A stretch of 41,171 nucleotides of DNA, taken from the NCBI GenBank assembly GCA_002706065.1, contig PAJM01000024.1, positions 14,798 through 55,968 on the forward strand. Direction: 5' to 3'. The DNA comes from Methanobacteriota archaeon (GTDB lineage: Archaea; Thermoplasmatota; Poseidoniia; Poseidoniales; Poseidoniaceae). Within the stretch, counting starts at the first letter, position 1; the number at the start of each line of letters is the position of its first letter. The notes beneath the pieces were generated by a model. It saw only the letters and a program-made list of their open reading frames with translations. It was not told where the DNA came from and made no database searches. Shown piece by piece: positions 23,500-31,553 of the stretch. Position numbers and translations under genes: made by a program.

Positions 23500-23509
23500 G
23501 GTGTTAAGC

Positions 23510-25972
23510 ATGGGAACGCCTCGACTTCCAGACAAACGATGGTCAATCGACCTCGAAAAGAAAATTCAAGAAGACCACTACGCAGATGAACCGAGCTACC
23601 AAGCTCGCTATGGGTTCAGGCCAGATAGTGGCAAACCTATCTTTGTGATCGATACACCTCCACCGTACCCGTCCGGAACGTGGCATATCGGAGCTGTTGC
23701 TCAATATTCAATGATCGATGTACTTGCACGTTCTCAGCGATTGCTTGGAAAGGAAGTATACTTTCCCTGGGGAGTTGATCGAAACGGAATCAACATCGAA
23801 TTTACTGTTGAGAAAAACACCAAGCGGAAAATGAAAACCTATGACAGGGAGGAATTCCTCAACTTGTGTCGAGAGACGATTGAAACCTTTACTCAAGCAA
23901 TGCGGAAAACAGCCGCTCGTGTTGGGTTATCATGTGATTTTGCAGCCGAATATCTCACGGATGCTCCAGATTACCGTTCCGTTACTCAATCGATTTTTAT
24001 TGAACTGTTCAAAAAAGGAGACATCGTTGAAGATCTCCGACCAAACATCTACGATCCAGTTGAAGGGACGACAATCGCCGATGCAGAAGTTGAACGTGTT
24101 GGCCGCATGACAAAACTTGTCGACGTCCGTTGGACAACGGAAGACGGGGAAGAACTCGTAATTTCTACAACCCGTCCTGAAATGATTTGTGCATGTGGAG
24201 TTGTCGTAGTCCACCCGGATGATGAACGGTATCAACATCTTGTAGGACAACGTGTAACGCTACCTATGCCGGTGAATGGACGTAGTACATCGGTTGAAAT
24301 ACAAACCCACGCATCTGTCAAATCTGAATTTGGCAGTGGAATTTTGATGGTGTGTTCTTTTGGTGATCAAAATGACGTTGCTGTCTTCCGAGAACTTGGG
24401 TTGACGCCATTTCAGGCCATCGATTTGAACGGATGCATGACTGGAATTTCAGGATCCCTTGAAGGTTTGACTGTTCTTGAAGCACGTGCAAAAGCAATTG
24501 AAATGCTTGATTCCAACGGACTCATCGCTTCAGTTGAAGAGCGCCAACAAGAGATTCCTGTCTCAGAACGAGGGAAAAATCCAGTTGAGATTATTCTATT
24601 GAAGGAATGGTATGTACGACAAACCCACATTCAGGACAAGATGCTTGAATTGATTGAAGAGATTGAATTCCATCCACCTCGCAACCGACAATTCTTGCTG
24701 GATTGGATGGAAAACATCAGTATCGACTGGCCCATCTCTCGTCGCCGATGGTACCACACAGAGATTCCGATTTGGTATTCCGAAGATGAAACACACATCA
24801 TCGTCCCTCCTGCGGGACAATATGTCCAACCGTGGAAGGATTCACCACCTGAAGGCTCGAGAGTCTTACGTAGAGATACGCGAGAGGATGTCGGTGATTA
24901 TTCTGCACTTCAGAACGAGATGGGAGAGATTCGCGGAGAAGAAAAGGTGTTCGATACATGGATGGATTCGTCCAACTCCAACCTCTTCGTTAGTGGCTAC
25001 CTCAATCAACCCGATGTGTTCGACAAGGCATTCCCAACAGCATTGCGTCCTCAAGGAAAAGAAATTGTTCGCACGTGGTTGTACTATACACTCCTGAAAT
25101 CTACGTTGCTCTTAGAACAACCCGGTTTCAAACACGTATGGATCGACGGACTTGGAATGGATCCTTGGGGTCGAAAGATGTCCAAATCATTGGGCAACGG
25201 CATCGATGCAGATAGCGTCCTTGAATGTGGAGCTGGTGGCCGAACCGGATCATGGAAAGTTCGTGGACCAGATGGTTCAGTCAATCTGAAAGCCAACAAA
25301 ATTGGAAGCGAATGTTTCCGATTGTGGAAAGCCTGTGAAGCACAAGTTGGTGATGATTTTCACATCAACCCGGAAGAGATTGAATCGAAGTATTTTGGCG
25401 TTTTAACGAAAATCTTCAACGTTGCACGTTTTGCAAGCCAATTCGAATGTCCAGAACAAGAACCATCAACGCCTTACCCCATCGAAGACCGATGGATTCA
25501 ATCCGAGTTTGCAGCGATGATGACATCGGTTGAAGAGTCATGGGCATCTCTTGACATTTACACCGCAACACAGGCGCTCAAGACCTTTGGGACTGGAGTA
25601 CTCCCGTCGCATTGGTTAGAAATGGCAAAATCACGACTGTACGATGGAGATGAACATGCTGCATGGACCATACATCGCGTTCTGAAAGATTTCCTCGCTG
25701 CATTCAGTCCAATATGTCCTTTCTTCTGTCACCACATCTCGATGACATTGTATGATGAAAGCGCGGTTGATGTGGATGCGTTCCCAGAGTTACCAACCAT
25801 CGATACAGAATTGAATGCTCGAACAACCGAAATTGAGGCGTTCAACAGTGAAGTCTGGAAGACCAAAAAAGAAAACGGATTATCACTTAACGCTGAAATT
25901 GAGGGGATTGTCATCCCTGAATCACTTGAAGCATTCCGAATGACGCTAACTCGAATGCATAAATTACTCTGA
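23510..25972 (+). CDS. valS: Valyl-tRNA synthetase (archaeal type)
   Basis: IDTPPPYPSGTWHIGAVAQYSMIDVLARSQRLLGKEVYFPWGVDRNGI, ISTTRPEMICACGVVVVHPDDERY (editing domain), SRRRWYHTEIPIWYSED, GLGMDPWGRKMSKSLGN. An alternative GTG start lies at 23501. Confidence 0.88.
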   Translation: MGTPRLPDKRWSIDLEKKIQEDHYADEPSYQARYGFRPDSGKPIFVIDTPPPYPSGTWHIGAVAQYSMIDVLARSQRLLGKEVYFPWGVDRNGINIEFTVEKNTKRKMKTYDREEFLNLCRETIETFTQAMRKTAARVGLSCDFAAEYLTDAPDYRSVTQSIFIELFKKGDIVEDLRPNIYDPVEGTTIADAEVERVGRMTKLVDVRWTTEDGEELVISTTRPEMICACGVVVVHPDDERYQHLVGQRVTLPMPVNGRSTSVEIQTHASVKSEFGSGILMVCSFGDQNDVAVFRELGLTPFQAIDLNGCMTGISGSLEGLTVLEARAKAIEMLDSNGLIASVEERQQEIPVSERGKNPVEIILLKEWYVRQTHIQDKMLELIEEIEFHPPRNRQFLLDWMENISIDWPISRRRWYHTEIPIWYSEDETHIIVPPAGQYVQPWKDSPPEGSRVLRRDTREDVGDYSALQNEMGEIRGEEKVFDTWMDSSNSNLFVSGYLNQPDVFDKAFPTALRPQGKEIVRTWLYYTLLKSTLLLEQPGFKHVWIDGLGMDPWGRKMSKSLGNGIDADSVLECGAGGRTGSWKVRGPDGSVNLKANKIGSECFRLWKACEAQVGDDFHINPEEIESKYFGVLTKIFNVARFASQFECPEQEPSTPYPIEDRWIQSEFAAMMTSVEESWASLDIYTATQALKTFGTGVLPSHWLEMAKSRLYDGDEHAAWTIHRVLKDFLAAFSPICPFFCHHISMTLYDESAVDVDAFPELPTIDTELNARTTEIEAFNSEVWKTKKENGLSLNAEIEGIVIPESLEAFRMTLTRMHKLL

Positions 25973-27076
25973 TTCTTCATCAAACGCCAACGTCGTTTGA
26001 CGAGTGTCCAGCTCCTCGAGTTGTCCCAAACGAAAACCAATAAGTCGTATTTTTTCCTCCTGGTGAACGTTTTCAGCGAATAAACGTCGAACTTGACGAA
26101 GAAAAACATCCGTATCATCCATTGCAACAGGTATCGAACGACCATGGGTATGGGTTTCAAACCCTGTGTATCGAATTTTGACCTCTGCAAGTCGTCCAGC
26201 AATACCCTCGGTACGTGCCTTATCCAAAACACCGATCGTCAACTGTTCCAAGAGTTCAAGCACGTGTTCATGATCACTTTGGTCGCGTGAAAACGTTCGT
26301 TCCTTTCCAATTGAACGACGCGACCGCAATGGACTTACATCATTCGAAGTCGACCCCTCAACAACTCGCAAGACCCACGATGCAAACCGTTGGGAAGTCA
26401 TTCTTGAAAGCGCAAGTTCGCCCAATTCTGCCGCCTCATCCATCGTTGTAATACCCCACTCTGCGAGAACATTCGCAGTTTTTGGCCCAATTCCCGGCAC
26501 TTCTCGGACGGTTCGACCTTCGAAAAATTCTGCAATTTCATCTGGAAGAACTCGATGAATTCCGTTTGGTTTGTTGACTTCTGAAGACATCTTTGCAATG
26601 ATGCGCGTAGGTCCAATCCCAAACGATGCTGTTAATCCAACGCGTTCATGAATTGCTCGTTGCAATCGTCGGGCAAGACCCATTGCTTCATCCCAATCGC
26701 CTCCGACGAGTTCAGTGACATCCAGATACGCTTCGTCGATGCTGGCTTGTTCAAATTTATCCGAATCGTTTCGAAGCAATTTCATGACTCGACGAGATGC
26801 CATTGAATACAGCGACCGAGTTCCACGAATGAATCGTGCTGGGCCAAAAGGGTGGCCAGGACACCGTCGCCACGCTTCAGAAATCGGCATAGCTGAACGG
26901 ACGCCGTATTCACGAGCAGCATAATTGCAGGTCGAGACAATCCCACGCCCACGTCCCTGCATTGGGTCCGAACCAATGATCAACGGTTCATCTTCGGGAA
27001 ATCCATGATGGAGTATTTCGACCGATGCAAAAAAAGCATCGAGGTCGCAATGAATGATGATTCGTTCCTTGCGCAC
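25964..27076 (-). CDS. dinB: Y-family DNA polymerase IV (DinB)
   Basis: IIHCDLDAFFASVEILHHGFPEDEPLIIG, STCNYAAREYGVRSAMPISEAWRRCP, YSMASRRVMKLL, EQASIDEAYLDVTE, ASFGIGPTRIIAKMSSEVNKPNGI, VREVPGIGPKTANVLAEWGI. Confidence 0.95.
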   Translation of the reverse strand: MRKERIIIHCDLDAFFASVEILHHGFPEDEPLIIGSDPMQGRGRGIVSTCNYAAREYGVRSAMPISEAWRRCPGHPFGPARFIRGTRSLYSMASRRVMKLLRNDSDKFEQASIDEAYLDVTELVGGDWDEAMGLARRLQRAIHERVGLTASFGIGPTRIIAKMSSEVNKPNGIHRVLPDEIAEFFEGRTVREVPGIGPKTANVLAEWGITTMDEAAELGELALSRMTSQRFASWVLRVVEGSTSNDVSPLRSRRSIGKERTFSRDQSDHEHVLELLEQLTIGVLDKARTEGIAGRLAEVKIRYTGFETHTHGRSIPVAMDDTDVFLRQVRRLFAENVHQEEKIRLIGFRLGQLEELDTRQTTLAFDEESE

Positions 27077-27094
27077 ACAACACTACACTTGTCG

Positions 27095-27148
27095 ACAGTG
27101 TTTGAAATTCATCCTTCACTTTTTGGCTACTCTCTCGGAAAACACTGT
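27095..27148. promoter_or_regulatory. Candidate operator: inverted pair of AAACACTGT in the dinB / recA-like divergent intergenic region
   Basis: acagtgttt (27095-27103) and aaacactgt (27140-27148) are exact reverse complements, 45 bp apart. Each is embedded in an imperfect local dyad (acacTtgtcgacagtgt; aaaacactgtggttt). Confidence 0.35.
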
Positions 27149-27185: not shown

Positions 27186-27857
27186 ATGCATCCAGTCAGG
27201 CAAACAAATCGAGAATTGCAGATTCCTTCAACTGGAATCACACTTCTGGAAGGTCCCGGATATTTTGGCAAGGATGTTCGCATTGTAGTTCAGCAATGGA
27301 CTGCTTTGTTACTCTCACAAGGTCACGCAGTACATTGGATTGATGGTGGACATCGATTTGATCCGAGTAGTTTTTTCCCCCTTATGCGATCGTTGAACTG
27401 TCACATCGAAGAAGGCCTACGCAGATTGTACATTGGCCGTGGATTCACATTGCATCAACTGCATGCACTTATCGCAAGAGTTCGCCATGAAGTCACACTC
27501 ACAAAGGCTTCAATCATCGTCATCGATGGGATGCTTGCTATGTTTCTTGACGAACAAATCAAGCGTTTTGAATCACGTTCAATATTGCGCCATTGTCTTG
27601 CAGCACTTCAAGAACTGTCCCAATCTTGTCCAGTAGTGGTCCTTGACGGAAAGACAACATCACCCTTGCATCAGCAACTCAAACATACGATGCGGCCATA
27701 CCTCAGTCAACGATTGAAAGGGCAATGGGAGAATCAAAAACGGAGAGGATTGCGTTTTTGGAACAAGGATGAACAATATGTGATCGATACGAAGCCAATG
27801 ATGAATCAACATCAACAACGGCTGAATGAACTCACATCCATTGCTCGAGACGGGTGA
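27186..27857 (+). CDS. RecA/RadA superfamily-like protein with degenerate P-loop
   Basis: GITLLEGPGYFGKDVRIVVQQWTALLLSQGHAVHWIDGG (degenerate Walker A) and SIIVIDGMLAMF (Walker B-like), followed by R.ILRHCLAALQELSQSCPVVVLDGK. The ORF track starts at TTG 27165; ATG 27186 is preferred. Confidence 0.6.
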   Translation: MHPVRQTNRELQIPSTGITLLEGPGYFGKDVRIVVQQWTALLLSQGHAVHWIDGGHRFDPSSFFPLMRSLNCHIEEGLRRLYIGRGFTLHQLHALIARVRHEVTLTKASIIVIDGMLAMFLDEQIKRFESRSILRHCLAALQELSQSCPVVVLDGKTTSPLHQQLKHTMRPYLSQRLKGQWENQKRRGLRFWNKDEQYVIDTKPMMNQHQQRLNELTSIARDG

Positions 27858-30225
27858 GTGATGATTGGAGGAGATTGTCTTCAGACCATCCAAACGGTGC
27901 CAACACAGCCCAGATTGCGCGTACTGCTAAGCGACGATAGTGAGCAAGATCAATACGTCGAAATGGGTGTTGCAGGTGTTCACACTCCTGGGCAAGGAGA
28001 ACACGCTGCAATGGATTGTTCTGATCTTTTGAGCAAACAATGAATCGAACTTTTGACGCCAGTTCAATACGAAAGCCAAGGGAGATGGAGCGTTGATATG
28101 CCAACATTGCAACAGTTTGTGAAGAAGTTTGTGTCGGTTTTCGTGAGATTCGTTGCGCTATGAGTAAGTCTCGTGGAGGTACTTCGAAGTTTTCCAAGCG
28201 ATGTATTTCATCGAGAAGAAGCCGTTGAACACGCAATTGCACTCGATAACTCGGGATTCCGTCGAGTAGATCATCGGATTCAGCAAGGAGATGCAGTGCT
28301 CGTTCCTGCAGTTGAGCAACCCATGGACAGGTTGAATGTTGTCGTAATTCCAAACCCCGAACCTTCATTCCACTCTCTCCATACGCCCAATACTTTGTCA
28401 AGGAACCTCCACTATGCACTCGGCTTGGGAGAAATGCAATGCAACGATAAGTCGCTTCGTATTCAAGAGGGATTCCCGTCACTGAATGTACATGATGAGC
28501 GAGTTCCATAGCTGAGGCATGTTGTTCTTCGAGTGGACGATTCTCACGGTCACGAATCCAAATGGAATCGACAATGGCATGCAATACCTCCCATCCACGT
28601 TCTTGAGCATGCTCAATCGTTTGCAGAAGAAGTTCACGAGCCCATGCACATATGGCTTCATGCGCTTCGATTCGACCAAAACGGGCATTGCGATAGCCGG
28701 TGTATCCAAAACAGGTTACAAGAAGCCACTTGAGCGCATTTTGCTGGCGATCTGCCGCATCCCCCTTAACCACGATTTGTTGTTTGAGGCGGCGGCGGCG
28801 TTCGATAAGTGGAGCAACAACACGGCCAAGAAATCCATGTCTTCGACCACAGGTGTGGGTCATGAGTTCGGGTACCTGAAACGCCGTTGCACACTGCTGT
28901 GGAAACGCCAAACTCGCTGATTTCCACTGTTGCTCCATCACCTGAAATCGCTTCCTTGCCTCATCAGGATGAAGGGGCAACGGTGTGTTGTTTGGGGCTG
29001 GGTCACAGCAACTACAGTTCAGAGTTTCAGGAGAAATATTTCTAGTAGCGATGATGCTTGGAAAGAGACTCGCAAAGTCAAGTTCAATCACATTCGCATA
29101 GACGCCAGGTCGACTATCAAGATAGAGACCTCCTCGGTCGGATTGCAACAAATCCCAAGCCGATTTCGTATCTTCCGGACGTGTCTTTTTCCATGGTACG
29201 AGAACACCGTCCTCCATTGCAACTCTGTATTGAATCGCGCTGATGACAGACCCAGGAGATTTCCTTGCTGCATCACTAATTCGAGTCGCTGAAACACTCG
29301 CGAGTTCATACAGACCATCCAGACCACCTTCTCGAAACATAAAGCTCGATGAAAGATCGATGTGAATACGACCTTCGAGAGGGAACTGAGGATCGCTACG
29401 AAGAACTTGTCCATACGACGAAAGAATACGAGTTTGACCAACCTGACGCAGAGGTGTTGTGTTCCGCCCAAGAGAAAGCGTCAAGTTGTTCCTTTCAAGA
29501 TAGGATAAAAGATGAGGAAATCCTTCAGTCGTACCACGAATTGAGAGAACAAGATCGGGATCAAATTTATTGAACCATTGTTCAAATTTCGTCACGTGTC
29601 CTGAATGATTGAGATCAAATATGATTTCGTTACCAAGCGCATTGCCTGAGGTGTCGCATGGAACAACACGGATTTCAGATGGCTGTCGATTCGACACCGA
29701 GCCACCACGTTGTTGGAAACCGACTTCAATTCGACAGCACCGCCAGGTTCGTCGTACGAGAGTTCCTTCAAACAGTGCGAGTTCATTGTTATGAAGACGC
29801 ACTGAAGAACCAATTGTCAATCGTTTTGAGGTGAGGTACTGCTGTTCTGGACGCACATCCACTGAATAGAGTGTGAAACGTACATGTTCACCTCGTGCAT
29901 CGATGTGTTCTGCTAACGAACGCATTGTGGCACATGACTCGAGTGTAATAGCGAGCAAATGCTCCGTATCGTGCGAACCAAGTTCAGTTCGCTTCATTTC
30001 AAAGGTATAGTCTTGAAGACCGTAGCGGAGACGGAGTTCGGGTTGCCAGAGCCAATCGACCAGATTCCGAAGGTGCTCTCGACGACCAGCTACATGAATG
30101 ACAGGATGCCATGGTTCGCGGAATGATGAGACATGACCTTGTTCTGTAACAATCCAAACCAACATCTCCAATTGTGCTGAACAAAGGTGTACATCCAGAA
30201 TCCATCCAACGTCCTCATCCTTCAT
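27832..30225 (-). CDS. Divergent family B DNA polymerase (PolB2-like)
   Basis: Motif A ELDFASLFPSIIATRNISPETLN, motif B-like QNALKWLLVTCFGYTGYRNARFGRIEAHE, motif C-like VLHAIVDSIWIRD (canonical YGDTDS altered). Start set at MKDEDVGWILDVHL; the 5' extension in the ORF track overlaps the upstream small gene. Confidence 0.8.
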   Translation of the reverse strand: MKDEDVGWILDVHLCSAQLEMLVWIVTEQGHVSSFREPWHPVIHVAGRREHLRNLVDWLWQPELRLRYGLQDYTFEMKRTELGSHDTEHLLAITLESCATMRSLAEHIDARGEHVRFTLYSVDVRPEQQYLTSKRLTIGSSVRLHNNELALFEGTLVRRTWRCCRIEVGFQQRGGSVSNRQPSEIRVVPCDTSGNALGNEIIFDLNHSGHVTKFEQWFNKFDPDLVLSIRGTTEGFPHLLSYLERNNLTLSLGRNTTPLRQVGQTRILSSYGQVLRSDPQFPLEGRIHIDLSSSFMFREGGLDGLYELASVSATRISDAARKSPGSVISAIQYRVAMEDGVLVPWKKTRPEDTKSAWDLLQSDRGGLYLDSRPGVYANVIELDFASLFPSIIATRNISPETLNCSCCDPAPNNTPLPLHPDEARKRFQVMEQQWKSASLAFPQQCATAFQVPELMTHTCGRRHGFLGRVVAPLIERRRRLKQQIVVKGDAADRQQNALKWLLVTCFGYTGYRNARFGRIEAHEAICAWARELLLQTIEHAQERGWEVLHAIVDSIWIRDRENRPLEEQHASAMELAHHVHSVTGIPLEYEATYRCIAFLPSRVHSGGSLTKYWAYGESGMKVRGLELRQHSTCPWVAQLQERALHLLAESDDLLDGIPSYRVQLRVQRLLLDEIHRLENFEVPPRDLLIAQRISRKPTQTSSQTVAMLAYQRSISLGFRIELASKVRFIVCSKDQNNPLQRVLLAQECEHLQHPFRRIDLAHYRRLAVRAIWAVLAPFGWSEDNLLQSSLTRLEQWM

Positions 30226-30508
30226 CGTCTCCACCCAGTGATCGGACATGCTGCTGAAGCTGAGCCAATTGTTGTTCAAGAACGTGAATGCGTTCATGAG
30301 CTCCAAGGAGCATCGAGAGAAGCATCGGTTTCCATGCATCGTGAGCGGGGAGCATGCCTCCTGCGGCACGCCGCATTCGCACATCATGAAGCATCGTGTC
30401 AAAACGACAACGATCTTCGGCTGAAAGTGCTCGTCGATACGGTACAAGAACTTCGATTTCTTGTTCGACACGTCCCCGCCATGTTGGTACTGTTCGGCCC
30501 ATAACCAT
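30215..30508 (-). CDS. Small helical/coiled-coil hypothetical protein, overlapping the polB2-like start
   Basis: MVMGRTVPTWRGRVEQEIEVLVPYRRALSAEDRCRFDTMLHDVRMRRAAGGMLPAHDAWKPMLLSMLLGAHERIHVLEQQLAQLQQHVRSLGGDDEG. Amphipathic helical composition. The stop overlaps the polB2-like ATG by 11 bp. Confidence 0.6.
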   Translation of the reverse strand: MVMGRTVPTWRGRVEQEIEVLVPYRRALSAEDRCRFDTMLHDVRMRRAAGGMLPAHDAWKPMLLSMLLGAHERIHVLEQQLAQLQQHVRSLGGDDEG

Positions 30509-30566
30509 AGCCACAACTACCCATAGGGAAGATTTCTGAGAACCCCTTTTGAAAAGTGAAAATGGT

Positions 30567-31553
30567 TCACACAAGGTCGCTTCGATTCACGGTAGTTTCA
30601 GCCATGTGACCGTCAAGGGTTGCGAGCACTGCATCAACAATATCTAATCCAACGCGACGTTGTGCTTCAATGGTTGCTGCCCCGATGTGGGGCGTACCGT
30701 GGAAATTCCGGTGTTGAAGAAGCGGTGAGGTTGCGTCAACGGGTTCGCGTTCAAAAACATCGAGAGCAAGGGATGTGAGTTGCCCAGATTCCAACGCTGC
30801 ATAGGCCGCATCTTCATCGACGATACCACCGCGTGCACAGTTGACGATGTGATTGCCACATTTGAGATTAAATGGGTCGACACCAGGCATCATATCAATT
30901 CGCTTTGTGTTAATGAGATGGTGCGTTTCTTCGGTCAAATTACAGTGAATGGAGATGTGTGTGCATGTCTTGAAGAGATTGTCAACGTTCTTGTGCATGG
31001 TCACCCCTGTTTTTTTGGCCACGGATAGAGGTAGGTAAGGATCGTACGAGTGGACATCCATGCCAAAAGCCTGTGCGACCCGTGCAACACCCTGGGCGAT
31101 GCGTCCAAAACCGATTAATCCCAATCGCTTACCAAAGAGTTCGGTGCCTTTGAGTTCTTTTTTGGCCCACTCACCAGAACGCAATGATCGATCTGCTCTC
31201 GGGATAAATCGAAGCGAGCCAAGCAAATGACCAACGGTGAGTTCAACAACACTTTGCGTGCTTGCTCGTGGAGCGTTCACTACAGGCAATCCTAATTCTG
31301 ATGCTGCCGAGATGTCAATGTTGTCCACACCAACGCCTGCGCGGGCAACGACTTTCAATCGCGGTTGGCTTTTTTCCAACATTTCTTTGCTGATTTTTGT
31401 TGCACTACGAACGATAATTGCATCAAAATCTGCGAGTGCACCTGAGATAAGAGCATCATGTTCGATGAACTCTTCAACGACTTCACAACCAGCCTGCTCG
31501 AGCTTCTTGACCGCCTCATTCGACATGCCGTCCGTGACCGCAACCCTTCGCAT
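30567..31553 (-). CDS. serA: D-3-phosphoglycerate dehydrogenase (short form, no ACT domain)
   Basis: VVARAGVGVDNIDISAASELGLPVVNAPRASTQSVVELTVGHLL, KRLGLIGFGRIAQGVARVAQAFGMDVHSYDPY, NHIVNCARGGIVDEDAAYAAL, ALDVFEREP, HIGAATIEAQ. Confidence 0.9.
   Translation of the reverse strand: MRRVAVTDGMSNEAVKKLEQAGCEVVEEFIEHDALISGALADFDAIIVRSATKISKEMLEKSQPRLKVVARAGVGVDNIDISAASELGLPVVNAPRASTQSVVELTVGHLLGSLRFIPRADRSLRSGEWAKKELKGTELFGKRLGLIGFGRIAQGVARVAQAFGMDVHSYDPYLPLSVAKKTGVTMHKNVDNLFKTCTHISIHCNLTEETHHLINTKRIDMMPGVDPFNLKCGNHIVNCARGGIVDEDAAYAALESGQLTSLALDVFEREPVDATSPLLQHRNFHGTPHIGAATIEAQRRVGLDIVDAVLATLDGHMAETTVNRSDLV

Follow-up and report, generated by a model that had tools for sequence, protein, structure and literature searches.

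The window, that is, the whole stretch of 41,171 nucleotides analysed here, carries on its minus strand (27832..30225) an open reading frame which is archaeal PolB2 of the Poseidoniales (Marine Group II), a protein of 797 amino acids to which profile search, motif alignment, structural model and dN/dS point as the putative catalytic subunit of a translesion polymerase. The frame is open from an ATG at 30225 to a stop codon ending at 27832; mechanical ORF calling gave 894 amino acids because a TTG lies upstream in frame, and we took as the start the ATG which overlaps the end of the preceding gene by 11 bp. This preceding gene, directly upstream, is PPB2 (30215..30502, minus strand), recognized by alignment as a small helical subunit of 95 amino acids with the N-terminus MGRTVPTWR. 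On the plus strand, alignment and modelling identified iRadA (27186..27857), a RadA-fold protein of 223 amino acids whose ATG follows GGTGAG, and the coding regions of PolB2 and iRadA, as called in the window, overlap tail to tail by 26 bp (27832..27857). Next to iRadA and divergent from it lies a gene for a DinB-type Y-family polymerase (25964..27076, minus strand; Pfam IMS, E=1.3e-36) with a C-terminal PCNA-box-like QTTLAF. The cluster is flanked, in the window and in much of the family, by genes for a class I tRNA synthetase (23501-25972; probably ValS) and for a SerA-like D-isomer 2-hydroxyacid dehydrogenase (30567-31553). Two short elements were also noticed, a box TTCACTTTTCA upstream of PPB2-PolB2 (30550..30560, minus strand) and, in the divergent dinB/iRadA promoter region (27101..27123, plus strand), a conserved TTTGAAATTCATCCTTCACTTTT which contains TTCACTTT.

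The PolB2 protein matched Pfam DNA_pol_B with E=1.3e-25, and its top NCBIfam matches were the archaeal type B models PRK05761.1-4 (E=5.9e-106) and -2 (E about 1e-101), all below the curated cut-offs; scores so far above noise and yet under the cut-offs indicate that the PolB2 of the window is divergent. Its close relatives come from metagenome-assembled genomes of Poseidoniales/Poseidoniaceae (Marine Group II), one of them labelled MGIIa-L2. The gene was present in 20 of the 23 genomes of the genus searched (two fragments counted), in 6/12 genomes from other genera of the same family and in 6/24 genomes of the second family of the order. Most relatives also encode a separate family B polymerase of roughly 850-930 amino acids, which in the PolB2-bearing genomes matched only at E values of 1e-8 to 1e-4; in the assembly to which the window belongs, 83% complete, PolB2 was the only family B polymerase found. 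An AlphaFold2 model of PolB2 built with 27 sequences (pLDDT 76, pTM 0.57) fell below pLDDT 50 around motifs A and B; in a Foldseek search with it the highest-ranking hits were family B polymerases of archaea (TM about 0.5, E 4.5e-36). The model supports the family B fold, at a quality at which individual carboxylates cannot be placed in three dimensions.

An earlier note, made from the sequence alone, had described this gene as a family B polymerase with partly eroded catalytic motifs, and its reading of the individual motifs was borne out by alignment. Motif A, DFASLFPSII (29050..29079, minus strand, as are all the motifs that follow), retains the catalytic Asp and has LFP in place of LYP; motif B, KWLLVTCFGYTGY (28693..28731), keeps its Lys while VTCFG replaces NSxYG; and in motif C, HAIVDS (28564..28581), the first Asp is changed to Ile and the metal-binding second Asp is kept. 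The Exo II region PDLVLSIRGTTEGFPHL (29509..29559), which the note found to be without the usual N...FD, aligns to DPDIIVTYNGDSFDFPYL of Pfu PolB with both the Asn and the Asp absent, and it varies among relatives; for Exo I (RIEV) and Exo III the assessment comes from inspecting a low-confidence alignment only. In front of motif A, SDRGG (29128..29142) corresponds to the PolB2-specific D(K/R) motif, of which the DR is invariant across Poseidoniales and outgroups; PMC11791011 predicts that this motif contacts the PPB2 arm. The inference of a specialized polymerase devoid of proofreading likewise found support.

What did not hold was the view that the motifs are eroded and that polymerase activity is uncertain. 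Motif C reads H[AG]I[VI]D in 78/78 readable Poseidoniales homologues, with H, I and D invariant and with H[AG]IVD wherever it was readable in about 80 named loci, and HGI[VI]DS in 20/20 other Thermoplasmatota; among 27 aligned PolB2 proteins H548, I550, V551, D552, D382 and K498 are invariant (numbering begins one residue past the Met). HxxxD is the motif C state of PolB2, its second Asp being the metal ligand (PMC8764526), and the same position reads IID in S. islandicus PolB2 according to PMC11791011. The supposed erosion is thus the normal condition of the known PolB2 family, conserved among relatives and not random damage, and the idea of a uniquely eroded polymerase was discarded, as the motif states are common to the whole family. 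Within the genus, dN/dS of PolB2, where dS was computable, was 0.06-0.08, an approximate ratio since dS is near saturation, which indicates strong purifying selection and argues against decay. A gene drifting toward a pseudogene would agree with the patchy presence in the order (6/24 genomes of the second family), but full-length open frames, this dN/dS, invariant motifs and conserved partner genes are all against it, and we regard decay as ruled out for practical purposes. That the enzyme has lost catalysis and serves as a scaffold or regulator, an idea put forward for PolB2 between 2008 and 2014 (an inactive PolB2 in PMC4104785), deserves more weight, because the first Asp of motif C and the NSxYG of motif B are indeed lost. 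However, there is no variation in the HxxVD pattern, in the Lys of motif B or in either metal-ligand Asp, and the PolB2 proteins of Sulfolobus islandicus and S. solfataricus, in which the first Asp is likewise lost, are robust exonuclease-free polymerases that extend mispaired and lesion-bearing ends (PMC8764526), so that a dead scaffold appears improbable. In the manner of the S. islandicus enzyme, the Poseidoniales PolB2 would polymerise without proofreading.

The reading that we prefer, and hold with high confidence, is that the PolB2 gene of the window specifies the catalytic member of a translesion-synthesis complex formed with PPB2 and iRadA; the upstream box would co-regulate the genes. 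PPB2 with its MGRT arm, as this arm is defined in PMC11791011, and a RadA-fold iRadA adjoin PolB2 in essentially every locus. Published work on the activity and genetics of Sulfolobus PolB2, which carries the same substitution, also speaks for this reading (PMC8764526, PMC11791011). The MGR, W8 and R9 of PPB2 were invariant in 20 aligned sequences, while the iRadA model (pLDDT 83) gave RadA, Rad51 and Dmc1 as its best PDB matches. Walker A of iRadA is degenerate, reading GPGYFGKD in the window, and is lost altogether in the second family; the iRadA proteins of the genus retain the GK of Walker A, with T/S changed to D/E, and this counts against our reading in that iRadA may still bind ATP there. 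Under a loose search pattern, a PCNA-box-like tail is found on PolB2 in certain species and on iRadA in others, and 11/81 have it on both. Such tails moving between PolB2 and iRadA agree with the 'shuttling' motif described in PMC11791011; their presence on both proteins in several second-family species differs from the mutasome described there.

The arrangement of these genes is distinctive. PolB2 and iRadA lay on opposite strands in 80/80 measured Poseidoniales pairs, and the order PPB2>PolB2> <iRadA was found in all Poseidoniales loci where both were readable. The pairs mostly overlap, in relatives (L069-L148) by as much as about 200 bp, and the transcripts could be mutually antisense across this 3' overlap. 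In other Thermoplasmatota iRadA was present in 19/20 loci, always on the strand of PolB2 and mostly in the order iRadA-PPB2-PolB2. The inverted state in Poseidoniales versus the co-directional state elsewhere indicates that an inversion split the operon in the ancestor of the Poseidoniales or earlier. The measured Poseidoniales loci do not have the three genes as one co-directional operon, iRadA being inverted and convergent with PolB2. Since the three genes share orientation only 'in most cases' according to PMC11791011, the inverted iRadA does not disqualify the locus from membership of the mutasome family; the main text of that paper makes no mention of the convergent form. The dinB gene adjoins and diverges from iRadA in the window and in 40/80 loci, and its absence from the other half counts against the reading advanced here.

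We then examined the upstream box, TTCACTTTCA or TTCACTTTTCA, which is often tandem and precedes PPB2-PolB2, iRadA/dinB, radA and a gene for a beta-propeller-like protein. A word around TTCACTTT[C/T] sits 60-75 nt before PPB2. TTTCANTTT was found upstream of PPB2 in 28/50 representatives (shuffles 0.56, maximum 4), the exact tandem ANTTTCANTTTC in 12/50 (shuffles 0.04), and TTCACTTT[CT] upstream of iRadA in 18/46 (shuffles 0.3); these counts are to be read with the facts that the pattern was refined after the PPB2 upstream regions had been viewed and that, all belonging to one order, the genomes lack independence from each other. The box at 30550..30560 is assigned on this enrichment and on the same 11-mer at the radA of its own genome. 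In the PolB2 operons of other Thermoplasmatota the box was not found (best matrix score 5.4).

To follow the box beyond the locus we scanned 1.67 Mb (81%) of the Poseidoniales chromosome G033, 90% of which is coding. TTCACTTTCA occurs there nine times, and five of the nine copies immediately precede, respectively, radA, PPB2-polB2, iRadA/dinB, the propeller gene and a gene for a protein of 78 amino acids. A matrix made from radA boxes of other genera only placed radA 1st and PPB2 4th of 1507 gene starts, and radA was preceded by the box, under a relaxed pattern, in 30/30 genomes. The same matrix scores the PPB2 box of the window poorly because this genus uses TTCACTTTTCA; for the window's own genome, the exact 11-mer common to radA was used in place of the matrix; among its six occurrences are one ahead of PPB2 and one 109 bp upstream of radA. 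In the genus the radA box (L302, the genome's own radA, L303 and L304) is a tandem TGAAAGTGAATGAAAAGTGAA which precedes the gene by about 110-130 nt, in the orientation opposite to that of the PPB2 box. Together these positions suggest co-regulation of the PolB2 locus and radA by the box. It is somewhat unlikely, in our estimation, that the box is instead a general Poseidoniales promoter element or a chance word, an explanation which concerns only the regulatory part of our reading. In its favour are the shortness and AT-richness of the word, the ANTTTCANTTTC matches in the G033 chromosome, which fall mostly inside genes, and a second Orc1/Cdc6 paralogue there that lacks the box; against it are the five of nine TTCACTTTCA copies directly upstream of the named genes in so densely coding a sequence, the rank of PPB2 under the radA matrix and the shuffled sequences, which give almost none. 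The raw ANTTTCANTTTC excess in G033 (15 matches, against 1 when the pattern was reversed) was not accepted as a regulon, as most matches lie inside genes.

Other genes with the box were also noticed. The beta-propeller-like gene, of 199 amino acids (L334:1561-2157; L356-L371), is preceded at about -60 by TTCACTTTCA(CTTTCA) in 16/16 genomes, across which the proteins fall to 29% identity, and on this pattern it is a candidate new damage-response gene. The 78-aa protein is without a Pfam match and is followed by a DUF3860 protein (L335:978-1450); the box lies upstream in several genera, and in G033 it lies near tRNA-Glu. The box is also present in an intergenic gap close to the gene for the RFC small subunit, and a conserved 58-aa ORF beside that gene, with TTCACTTTTCA just upstream (L333:1280-1471; L353:1093-1284; L346), may be a small regulon protein. 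Two Orc1/Cdc6 paralogues, one of them divergent, were found per Poseidoniales genome (G000, G033 and six others), and such a paralogue is a possible regulator of the box. No box was found upstream of the divergent second paralogue in G033, and we dropped the notion that it is an autoregulated regulator.

The proposed complex can be compared with systems already described. Like S. islandicus Dpo2/PolB2 (PMC8764526, PMC7390963), the Poseidoniales protein is a family B enzyme of the HxxxD type with the first Asp lost, the motif A Asp kept, the exonuclease residues lost and the D(K/R) motif present; it differs in being longer (797 amino acids here) than the very short Sulfolobus PolB2 and in being known from sequence. 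With the PolB2 mutasome of PMC11791011, a complex of PolB2, iRadA and three PPB2, it shares the three genes, the MGRT arm, a RadA-fold iRadA, a decayed ATPase site and clamp-binding tails, whereas the inverted, convergent iRadA and the adjacency of dinB in half of the loci set it apart. Eukaryotic Pol zeta is similar as a proofreading-free family B extender with accessory subunits and differs in having other subunits, so that the likeness is one of analogy and not of membership. The damage-response element of the Sulfolobales Orc1-2 system is ANTTTC (PMC9738581), and the Poseidoniales box, often a tandem ANTTTC (ACTTTCACTTTC; exact in 12/50 PPB2 upstream regions vs 0.04 in shuffles), likewise stands upstream of the polB2 unit; the two belong to different phyla, each copy has only five fixed bases, and the resemblance may be due to chance.

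On the mechanism we propose, which draws on family biochemistry, the motif A Asp and the second Asp of motif C would bind the catalytic metals for polymerization, and the exonuclease fold, retained with its active site gone, would allow mismatched or lesion-distorted primer ends to be extended and not removed. Published models and the conserved features predict that the MGRT arm of PPB2 reaches in close to the PolB2 active site and that iRadA docks on PolB2 in the manner of a RadA protomer, without using ATP. PCNA would be reached through a QxxLxxF/W tail which, according to species, belongs to PolB2 or to iRadA. Insertion opposite the lesion would presumably fall to an enzyme like the DinB encoded next door, after which PolB2 would extend. 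With iRadA inverted to face PolB2, both halves of the locus and radA share the box, and they would be co-regulated on DNA damage. We infer each of these elements, namely polymerase activity, complex formation, the division of labour with DinB and induction by damage.

Existing literature on PolB2 accounts for the polymerase, which belongs to a known enzyme family. What is new is that the PolB2 mutasome operon is split and inverted across the lineage, and that a candidate damage box, recognized from sequence, links it to radA. We found no description of a damage regulon of Poseidoniales in the literature searched. We give about an even chance to a broader proposal, that TTCACTTTCA / TTCACTTTTCA marks an SOS-like Poseidoniales regulon comprising radA, the PolB2 mutasome (with iRadA inverted and separately promoted, its promoter region being common with dinB in half of the lineages), the beta-propeller-like gene and the small gene beside the DUF3860 gene, and that the box and the Orc1-2 element of Sulfolobales may have a common origin. 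Poseidoniales are abundant uncultured archaea of the sunlit ocean, and it is in these organisms that the candidate box would link the mutasome to radA.
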